Shown here: one piece after another, positions 3,486-46,864 of the stretch
Position numbering within the stretch: position 1 is the stretch's first letter
Layout: every line of letters begins with the position of its first letter
The notes under the pieces: generated by a model
What the model saw: the letters and a program-made list of their open reading frames with translations, nothing else
Database searches by the model: none
Told to the model about the DNA's origin: nothing
Origin: Corallium rubrum
Lineage: Eukaryota; Cnidaria; Anthozoa; Scleralcyonacea; Coralliidae
Assembly (NCBI GenBank): GCA_964035015.1
Contig: OZ036008.1
Span: 10,031,192-10,095,191 of the forward strand
Length of the DNA: 64,000 nucleotides
Reading direction: 5' to 3'
Program-made: the position numbers and the translations under genes

Positions 3486-3543
3486 ATGATGGGTAAGTGC
3501 GCCATGATGATGATACCGATTTTCTTAATAACATGTTTTAATT
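3486..3543 (+). CDS. Gene 1 exon 1: signal peptide
   Basis: Encodes [19 protein letters not shown] plus one base, followed by GTACGT. It has exactly the length (19 codons + 1 nt), phase and double-Met start of exon 1 of the paralogue at 39454. A stronger donor, GTAAGT, sits inside it at 3493 and is also phase 1; using it would leave out the hydrophobic signal. Confidence 0.65.
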
Positions 3544-45500: not shown

Positions 45501-46864
45501 AAGTAGAATTTTCACTTCAAGAAAGCAGGACACTGTCTCATGATTTAAACATCAAATATTTGTTAACCAAGGAAATTTTAAGTACTGATAGAAAACCACT
45601 TACATTATTTGTTTCAACATTATTATTTTAGCGAAAAAAAGTGAAACCAAACTGGTCGCAGCACTCGTGGTCATTGGTCTTCTCCTTGGAACACTATTCA
45701 TAATTGACTTGGTGCTTCTGTGCAGCAGAAAAGGCTTCATCTATGGTATTTTTACGAAGTATAGTGAAAGGAGAAACCACGCAGAGTTCGCAAATCAAGA
45801 GTTAAACAGTAAGCAAACAAATTTTGTACAGTACCTGAATTGACAAAATAAAAAAATAAAGTACTACTGTACTGCATTGGAGCCTGTTATCAACATTGAA
45901 AAAGATTTTTATCAACATTGAAAAAGACTACACTGCACCAGATTTAAAAGAATCCTTTCAAAAAGTTAATGAATATCAAAATACATATAATCTAAGGAAC
46001 AATGATACTAATTTAGTACTCCCAAAGCCAAAGAGAGAATTTCTCAGAAGAAGTTTTAAATATAAAGGTGCCATGCTTTGGAATAATTTATTACATGAAG
46101 CGAAACAAACAGAGTCGTTGGATTCTTTTAAAAGGCTTATAGGGCAGACTATGAGATGAAGTTGAATCACGCCACTCTGAATTCTGAAATTTTTTTATTT
46201 ATTTATTTATTTTTTTATTTTTTTTTATTTTTTTTTATCATCATCATTTTTATAAACCTATTTACTTTTTCATAAACCTTTTATTAACTTTGTAAACTTC
46301 CTAGTTGTTTGTTAGTTATTGTAATTAGTTTATTAGTATTAGTCAATTTGTTGTATTAGTTAAATTAAGCACGCCCCTCATTGAAACCAGCATATTTATT
46401 GTTGTTGAGGCTAGCGTGTTGAAATAAAGTATGTATGTATGTATGTATGTATGTATGTATGTATGTATGTATGTATGTATGTATGTATGTATGTATGTAT
46501 GTATGTATGTATGTATGTATGTATGTATGTATGTATGTATGTATGTATGTATGTATGTATGTATGTATGTATGTATGTATGTATGTATGTATGTATGTAT
46601 GTATTTTCAACTTTCATTCAAGTACAGTATATTAGGATGTTTACTCTGTCTAACACAGTAACACCAGATGATTTTATTTGTCAACAGAAAACCCTAGTTC
46701 AGAAAATTAATGTTTGAAACTTCCTTGTCTAATTTTTAGATAGAGGTGGTGACACTGGAAGCATCAATGACTTGGACATAGCTAATCACGCAGAGCCTAC
46801 ACTAAATGGTGATTGCAATCACACGGATCAATTTCTGACAAACACACCTGTAACATGCGTGTAG
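39454..46864 (+). CDS. Gene 2: predicted membrane-anchored VEGF-C/D-like ligand (4 exons)
   Basis: Exons 39454-39511, 44527-45096, 45632-45808 and 46740-46864 join to 930 nt (309 aa plus stop); every intron is phase 1 with good GTAAGT/GTAAGC donors. Seen: signal peptide 1-19; PDGF/VEGF-like knot region 30-105 with C30-K-P-W, R55-C56-M-G-Q-C60, H68-C69-Q-C71 and N97-H-I-S-C101; CXCXC repeats at 126-130, 148-152 and 169-173 with a partial one at 193-195; a transmembrane segment about 217-239; SRKGF stop-transfer; a tail of about 65 residues. N-glycosylation sites at N74 and N165. CXCXC (Balbiani-ring-like) repeats are the C-terminal hallmark of VEGF-C/D. The membrane anchor is not part of those families. 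I infer a juxtacrine or shed receptor-tyrosine-kinase ligand. AATAAA at 47002 may be its polyadenylation signal. Confidence 0.85.
40665..41465. mobile_element. MITE-like repeat with a 20-bp minisatellite (gene 2 intron 1)
   Basis: tgttctaaaaccgaaaatag is repeated about 22 times at 40909-41350. The flanks share gtttacatgaa, cgatccgat and aagtcaa words in inverted order. Confidence 0.9.
41590..42132 (+). mobile_element. Truncated non-LTR retrotransposon 3' end
   Basis: The frame ending at 41875 reads FPFDVGSYIWNQLP then AAKSSTSMSEFRSQIKG, the usual last residues of an L2/CR1-type reverse-transcriptase ORF, then a 3' UTR and the terminal repeat (TATTG)n. Confidence 0.7.
42428..42842. mobile_element. 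Fold-back element F5 with hammerhead-like motifs in both arms
   Basis: Arms of about 170 bp (tagaataaaacatattccga ... tcggaatatgttttattcta) with a unique 75-bp centre. Minus-strand motif 42508-42548 intact; plus-strand motif 42722-42762 has GAAG in place of GAAA. Confidence 0.88.
42508..42548 (-). ncRNA. Hammerhead-like motif, family F5
   Basis: TTGT, CTGATGA, extra T, GACTTT-GAAAT-AAAGTC, GAA, AT/AT, T, ACAA. Outer helix UUGU/ACAA and inner AU/AU differ from the other families but keep pairing. Confidence 0.45.
43005..43090 (-). mobile_element. tRNA-like SINE head
   Basis: The reverse strand has gggttcaaatcccgg (T arm/B box) preceded by an anticodon-arm-like stretch; no intact acceptor stem. 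Confidence 0.5.
43266..43702. mobile_element. GTTTACAC-type MITE interrupted by a 5S-SINE
   Basis: Ends agaccccgtttacac and gtgtaaacggggtct. The SINE (about 43360-43685, plus strand) with agttaagcccgg and ttggatgggtgaccg sits inside, so the MITE is older. Confidence 0.85.
44065..44486. repeat. (ATC)n microsatellite next to gene 2 exon 2
   Basis: About 420 bp of imperfect ATC/ATT repeats ending 40 bases before the exon 2 acceptor; its open frame runs into the exon by chance. Confidence 0.95.
44527..45096 (+). CDS. Gene 2 exon 2: PDGF/VEGF knot plus CXCXC repeats
   Basis: The acceptor TTACAG ends at 44526 just after a long (ATC)n tract; donor GTAAGT at 45097. 570 nt, phase 1 both sides. The start (AQS) matches gene 1 exon 2 (xQS). 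The growth-factor domain and the cysteine repeats share one exon, unlike gene 1, where exon 2 ends soon after the knot. Confidence 0.88.
45100..45400. mobile_element. R1 dispersed repeat in gene 2 intron 2
   Basis: acttcaaaaactcattaata, ctgatttacataaacttt and caatgaacttaccaaatggg as in 56.53-57.0 kb. Confidence 0.7.
45632..45808 (+). CDS. Gene 2 exon 3: transmembrane exon
   Basis: Acceptor TTTTAG ends 45631, donor GTAAGC at 45809; 177 nt, phase 1/1. It encodes the membrane span and the SRKGFIYG juxtamembrane motif. If the donor is not used, an in-frame stop occurs at about 45840, giving a shorter tail (FVQYLN end). Confidence 0.85.
45890..46603 (+). mobile_element. Truncated non-LTR retrotransposon 3' end with (ATGT)n tail
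   Basis: NTYNLRNNDTNLVLPKPKRE and SFKYKGAMLWNNL then ESLDSFKRLI are a classic cnidarian non-LTR C-terminus; stop at 46157. The 3' UTR ends gaaataaag followed by about 43 ATGT units (46431-46603). Lies in gene 2 intron 3. Confidence 0.8.
46740..46864 (+). CDS. Gene 2 exon 4: cytoplasmic tail
   Basis: Acceptor TTTTTAG ends 46739; 40 residues after the junction codon, ending NTPVTCV and TAG. Open only in the frame set by the phase-1 junction; no known domain. Support is splice consensus and frame only. Confidence 0.65.

Follow-up and report, generated by a model that had tools for sequence, protein, structure and literature searches.

The two genes g1 and g2 of Corallium rubrum probably belong to an octocoral-type subfamily of PDGF/VEGF-like type I membrane proteins, for which we propose a working as ligands held at the cell surface. 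Both genes encode a domain related to PDGF/VEGF and, downstream of it, a transmembrane (TM) helix which is more strongly conserved than the ectodomain. The initial annotation described them as a tandem pair; our results showed that they are two of at least six anchored genes in one cluster. PDGF and VEGF ligands are regarded as secreted, soluble factors. The window, which is the whole 64-kb stretch of DNA analysed here, corresponds to C30:10031192-10095191 of the 474-Mb genome.

Exon structure of g1 and g2

Re-reading of the exons placed both genes on the forward strand, 31 kb apart, in agreement with the initial annotation (Table 1). All introns are in phase 1, as had been claimed, and have GT-AG borders. 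The eight exons join into open frames, four of them giving 283 aa for g1 and four giving 309 aa for g2. The donors match MAG/GTRAGT at 9, 8 and 6 of 9 positions in g2 and at 6, 5 and 8 of 9 in g1, in exon order. The proposed common layout (signal, cystine-knot, TM and tail exon) holds for g2 but not for g1, which has an additional exon of 282 nt between the VEGF-type domain and the TM helix and whose TM exon is the last one. The two proteins are homologous (pairwise BLASTP, E 8e-7), and hhalign of the g1 and g2 family profiles gave E 2.3e-6 with a probability of 89%. The intron between exons 2 and 3 of g1 is filled by long tetranucleotide arrays (TTTG, TTCG, TTCA; 5857-6613).

A signal exon of 58 coding nt had been assigned to each gene. 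Signal exons were searched for in the 64 kb on both strands, using a rule of phase 1, a hydrophobic core and a donor of at least 7/9. Under this rule exon 1 of g2 was the sole candidate, which upholds the assignment for g2. When the donor threshold was lowered to 6/9, 41 candidates appeared on the forward strand of the window and 8 on the reverse strand. The first exon of g1 is therefore unproven, because its donor is only of this 6/9 class. A counterpart was looked for upstream of the two related genes V3 and V4 under the exon rule and was not found, and an in-frame ATG upstream of g1 exon 2, read without splicing, provides an alternative start. The equal 58-nt length of the two signal exons proves little. 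By hydropathy and exon search, g2 is predicted to have the signal and the single TM of a type I membrane protein; g1 has the TM, with a candidate signal exon.

Table 1. Exons of g1 (V5) and g2 (V6), with positions in the window
Feature	Position	Strand	Evidence
g1 candidate signal exon, 58 nt	3486..3543	+	open, hydrophobic core, phase-1 donor 6/9; unconfirmed
g1 exon 2, VEGF-type domain	5522..5830	+	PF00341 16.4 bits, E 0.012, profile 1-82/82; P0003 38%; paralogues V3, V4
g1 exon 3, 94-residue stretch	6677..6958	+	present in P0003 (23%) and V3/V4
g1 last exon, KGFCY after a TM helix containing the buried Asp, tail to T-M-V	7849..8051	+	76% TM/juxtamembrane identity with P0003
g2 signal exon, 58 nt	39454..39511	+	donor 9/9; P0001 signal similar in length
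g2 exon 2, VEGF-type domain followed by BR3P (CXCXC) repeats	44527..45096	+	PF00341 24.6 bits, E 3.1e-5; P0001, P0002, P0004, P0005
g2 exon 3, KGFIY after a TM helix containing the buried Asp	45632..45808	+	76-85% identity with P0001, P0002, P0004; Kyte-Doolittle 2.86
g2 exon 4, predicted cytoplasmic tail to T-C-V	46740..46864	+	P0001 tail 36% over the TM-distal part, end T-S-V

Kinship of the domain to PDGF/VEGF

The HMM search against PF00341 suggested by the initial annotation matched the excised domains of both g1 and g2. Six of seven members matched in all, g2 being the best (scores in Table 1), and every score stayed below the curated 27 bits; the excised domain of P0004 had no match. 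PF00341 was the only Pfam family that the excised domains matched. When exon pieces and whole proteins were used, it matched P0003 only (E 0.02). A search with PF00341 over the whole 474-Mb genome at E 0.001 gave zero matches, and as it also gave zero in 14 controls it was uninformative. A profile of the seven excised domains was then compared with the PDB. With E up to 10, all 36 distinct sequences found were VEGF, PlGF or PDGF (36/36, best E 5e-5); when the PDB was searched with whole proteins or whole-protein profiles (g2, A1, A2), no PDGF/VEGF match was obtained. Together with the sub-cut-off Pfam matches, this profile result supports the claimed kinship, and on these sequence comparisons we accept the domain of g1 and g2 as akin to PDGF/VEGF.

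The repeats of g2 point in the same direction. Three matches to C-x9-13-C-x-C-x-C, the BR3P feature of VEGF-C-like proteins, were found in g2, and the CXCXC family of Pfam scored 16.6 bits on the g2 exon piece (cut-off 15) and 9.7 on the whole g2 protein. No BR3P repeats were seen in g1. In the alignment, C30, C56, C60, C69 or C71, C101 and C105 of g2 line up with canonical knot positions, although the last one is shifted to +4 where +2 is canonical. The alignment shows none of the PDGF/VEGF interchain cysteines in g2, and cnidarian VEGFs are described as frequently lacking them (PMC10328876).

The g1 type departs further. By cysteine counts and alignment, g1-type domains do not have the full set of six knot cysteines: P0003 has five, V3 and V4 have four each, and g1 has seven, none of which lies at the aligned fourth knot position. 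Because the knot cysteines are too few or misplaced, the g1 type is filed, on its sequence, as a putative divergent relative and not as a full PDGF/VEGF family member. The domain tree grouped the g1 type (100/99) and was otherwise weak, with long branches. A second VEGF-type domain in g1 exon 3 was also considered. MAFFT placement and BLAST in a tiny set (E about 0.01-0.02) gave hints of it; hhalign (E 0.17, 0.35% probability) and Pfam, which returned noise only, did not support it.

The predicted model of g2 exon 2 has four long strands at moderate confidence (mean pLDDT 67.5). Cystine-knot proteins from several families were its best fold matches and no family stood out, activin and Norrin being level with or above PDGF/VEGF. 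The prediction for P0003 was of poor quality (mean pLDDT 43.7), except in the TM helix. The fold matches, the Pfam scores under threshold and the incomplete set of knot cysteines in the g1 type would all suit an anchored cystine-knot or cysteine-rich protein of some other kind, unrelated to PDGF/VEGF. We regard this as highly improbable, since the domain profile found nothing but PDGF/VEGF in the PDB, no second Pfam family matched the excised domains, and g2 carries BR3P repeats as VEGF-C-like proteins do (PMC10328876).

Conservation of the anchor in relatives and in a gene cluster

Protein searches found relatives of both genes. For g2, P0001 (45% identity, 97% covered) and P0002 were the 2 matches among 949 candidates, and P0004 and P0005 were found in addition; for g1, P0003 was found (37%). 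P0003 and P0004 come from the octocoral Paramuricea clavata. Both keep the anchor; a search for orthologues with it in other cnidarians had been suggested by the initial annotation. P0001 and P0002 keep it as well. None of the three protein searches, which required shared five-residue words, returned a match labelled as hexacoral or hydrozoan, P0001, P0002 and P0005 being without organism label.

Conservation is concentrated at the membrane. Both TM helices give strong Kyte-Doolittle peaks (2.93 for g1 and 2.86 for g2). Between g2 and P0001, P0002 and P0004, identity was 44-46% in the domain, 45-47% in the repeats and 26-41% in the tail; between g1 and P0003 it was 38% in the domain, 23% in exon 3 and 30% in the tail. 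Overall, the TM/juxtamembrane part was 76-85% identical versus 23-47% for the ectodomain (g1 and P0003 being at the lower end of the former range). The juxtamembrane pattern D-L-xxx-C-x-K/R-K-G-F-x-Y is common to g1 and g2 as had been noticed, but its Cys is not invariant, being replaced by Phe in P0002 and by Gly in P0004. When the anchors of the six cluster genes (V1-V6) and the four relatives with TM were compared, all ten rows kept the buried Asp and, counted from it, Gly (+9), Phe/Leu (+10) and Tyr/Phe (+12).

The anchors of g1 and g2 are identical at 12 of 48 residues. Out of 200,000 region-wise shuffles of the two anchors, 8 reached the observed BLOSUM score and 1315 the observed identity. 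The pattern [DE][LIVM].{2,4}C..KG[FY] occurred only in the TM exons of g1 and g2 when all six frames of the window were scanned. A TM helix combined with D-x8-G-[FL]-x-[YF] was found six times in 587,008 strand bases (the window plus loci L012 and L014-L035), always in V1-V6, and three more matches to the motif in these bases were all without TM. Because the pattern was derived from the V1-V6 sequences themselves, its six-fold exclusive occurrence shows rarity among the sequences scanned and is not independent proof. Besides the Asp, the TM exons of V1 and V2 (L012, reverse strand; L014, forward strand) have a Glu in common, as I-G-E, which lies in the helix's outer half.

The C-terminus is also kept. 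Of the six complete C-termini that differ from one another, five finish with T-x-V (those of g1, g2, P0001, P0003 and V3, identical to V4), and the exception is P0004, which ends in NTA. P0002 and P0005, as read-through, and the tentative tails of V1 and V2 were left out of this count. Among the open-frame ends of the window, T-x-V occurred in 1 of 231, which is that of g1 itself. T-x-V is a class I PDZ-type motif (C-terminal S/T-x-hydrophobic), and the conserved end would fit a class I PDZ ligand and an intracellular tail.

The six anchored genes lie within about 228 kb in the order V1 (reverse strand, 9.850 Mb), V2 (9.891), V3 (9.986), V4 (10.007), V5 or g1 (10.034) and V6 or g2 (10.070 Mb), all but V1 on the forward strand; these gene counts are lower bounds. 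Searching the genome with P0001 gave eleven places, including g2, C30:9890713 (+), C30:9853101 (-), C1:93013821 (+) and C1:44756843 (-). The V1 TM exon was found at C30:9850336 (-) with E 0.14. Five other places were weak (E 0.04 to 7.9), one of which, L009, belongs to the gene at C1:44.75 Mb. The TM exon of V2, missed by the homology search, came from a hydropathy scan, and the TM exons of both V1 and V2 are phase 1 in and out, as in g2. The g1-type genes V3 and V4 were located by reading the neighbourhood, V3 at about C30:9.9865-9.9896 Mb and V4 at about 10.0075-10.0113 Mb. Both show a domain exon and a match to exon 3, and their last exon carries TM and tail. In each of the six genes a TM exon follows downstream with the correct strand and phase; the exon 3 acceptors of V3/V4 and the tail exons of V1/V2 are tentative. 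V3 and V4 are recent duplicates (L028, L030, L031): in the best long stretches their nucleotides are 93-96% identical, and the proteins of their TM exons are the same. Judged from this duplication, the cluster appears to be still growing. The four additional anchored paralogues and the anchor-keeping relatives support the fixed TM anchor that had been proposed.

It could be argued that the main transcripts leave out the TM exons or continue into the intron. The proteins would then be secreted, and the anchor would belong to a minor isoform or have arisen as an artefact when exons were joined. The gene models were read from genomic DNA alone, and P0002 and P0005 run on past exon 2, which is, however, expected of gene calls on unspliced DNA. 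Moreover, they do so exactly where g2 exon 2 ends and therefore support the g2 junction. In a VEGF-like gene at C1:93.01 Mb the frame of the four repeats runs into a stop, and no TM candidate was found in the 5.7 kb downstream; a 6/9 donor lies inside this frame, so that the stop is a reading and not a proof. Downstream of the C1:44.75-Mb gene there is one hydrophobic stretch, without the motif. We consider such secreted main products very unlikely, since domain and TM are present in one chain in P0001, P0003 and P0004, and six of six cluster genes have the TM exon in place. In P0001, signal, domain, repeats, TM and tail follow each other uninterrupted in one protein. It would mirror a spliced transcript if it was made by an intron-blind gene caller, as that of its source, MGnify, presumably is.

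Proposed working and relation to known systems

As surface-held ligands, the proteins would expose the VEGF-type domain outside the cell, followed in g2 by the VEGF-C-like BR3P repeats. A short stalk would lead to the conserved TM helix with its buried Asp and on to a short tail, which has G-F/L-x-Y/F close to the membrane and T-x-V at its end. A PDZ scaffold may confine the ligand to a particular region of the cell surface, where it would act on a VEGFR/PDGFR-type receptor of touching cells, and cleavage of the stalk may also free it. We infer such juxtacrine or shed action from the anatomy of the proteins. The buried Asp might serve self-association where interchain cysteines are missing, or binding to a partner helix. 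For g2, association of the TM helices through the Asp is a plausible substitute for the missing interchain cysteines.

The anchored forms could also be precursors that are always cleaved, the working ligand being a soluble VEGF-C-like factor and the anchor serving transport or timing. Many anchored growth factors are shed, a stalk of about 20 residues separates the last repeat of g2 from its TM, and the stalk of P0002 contains a furin-type RRRR. Against this, P0002 was the only one of six proteins checked with a furin-type site, and the strong conservation of the TM helix, juxtamembrane part and C-terminus suggests a role beyond transport. Obligatory cleavage is thus unlikely, and we prefer the surface-held ligand. 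Beyond it, one may speculate, tentatively, that a subfamily of TM-anchored PDGF/VEGF-like proteins, clustered and still duplicating, arose in octocorals for contact signalling in both directions. In it the Asp would replace interchain disulfides by joining the ligand to itself or to a partner helix, and the G-F-x-Y / T-x-V tail would sit on a PDZ scaffold that can signal back.

In their working, the proposed ligands resemble two known groups. KIT ligand, CSF1 and FLT3 ligand are anchored, sheddable ligands of a receptor class related to PDGFR/VEGFR; they are four-helix cytokines with another fold, and the likeness is one of working only. Ephrin-B is a TM-anchored ligand with a PDZ-binding C-terminus and is able to signal back; its ectodomain is different, and no sequence kinship is claimed. 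Vertebrate VEGF-C/D and PDGF share the domain kinship, and VEGF-C the BR3P repeats, but they are known as secreted and are not known to carry a TM or a PDZ-type tail.

Cnidarian VEGF-C-like proteins with BR3P repeats are known from Podocoryne, Hydra, Nematostella, Acropora and others (PMC10328876). As in g2, their VEGF homology domain is followed by BR3P repeats and the interchain cysteines are often missing, whereas in g1 and g2 a conserved TM and tail close the protein, and the g1 type is without repeats. The word transmembrane does not occur in the main text of that paper, and the seven cnidarian genomes with VEGF-like genes named there include no octocoral. Among the matches listed in a search of titles and abstract openings of the open-access literature, there was no report of a TM-anchored VEGF/PDGF in cnidarians.

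An anchored cluster and an apparently unanchored VEGF-C-like gene in one genome would allow soluble and contact-dependent use of one ligand fold to be compared. In an animal without blood vessels, they make a role of VEGF-type signalling before vessels testable, as well as the contributions of a PDZ-type tail and of a buried acidic residue to a growth factor.

The window also contains exons of an ANKRD13-type gene on the reverse strand (52056-52274 and 53840-54196), in which both UIM (PF23625, 28.5 bits) and ANKRD13_C (35.6 bits) exceeded their cut-offs. The tRNA family of Rfam (RF00005) matched at three places, 56730-56802 (-), 60730-60801 (+) and 62019-62088 (-), with 34.9 to 49.1 bits; these tRNA-like stretches are possibly tRNA-derived repeats.
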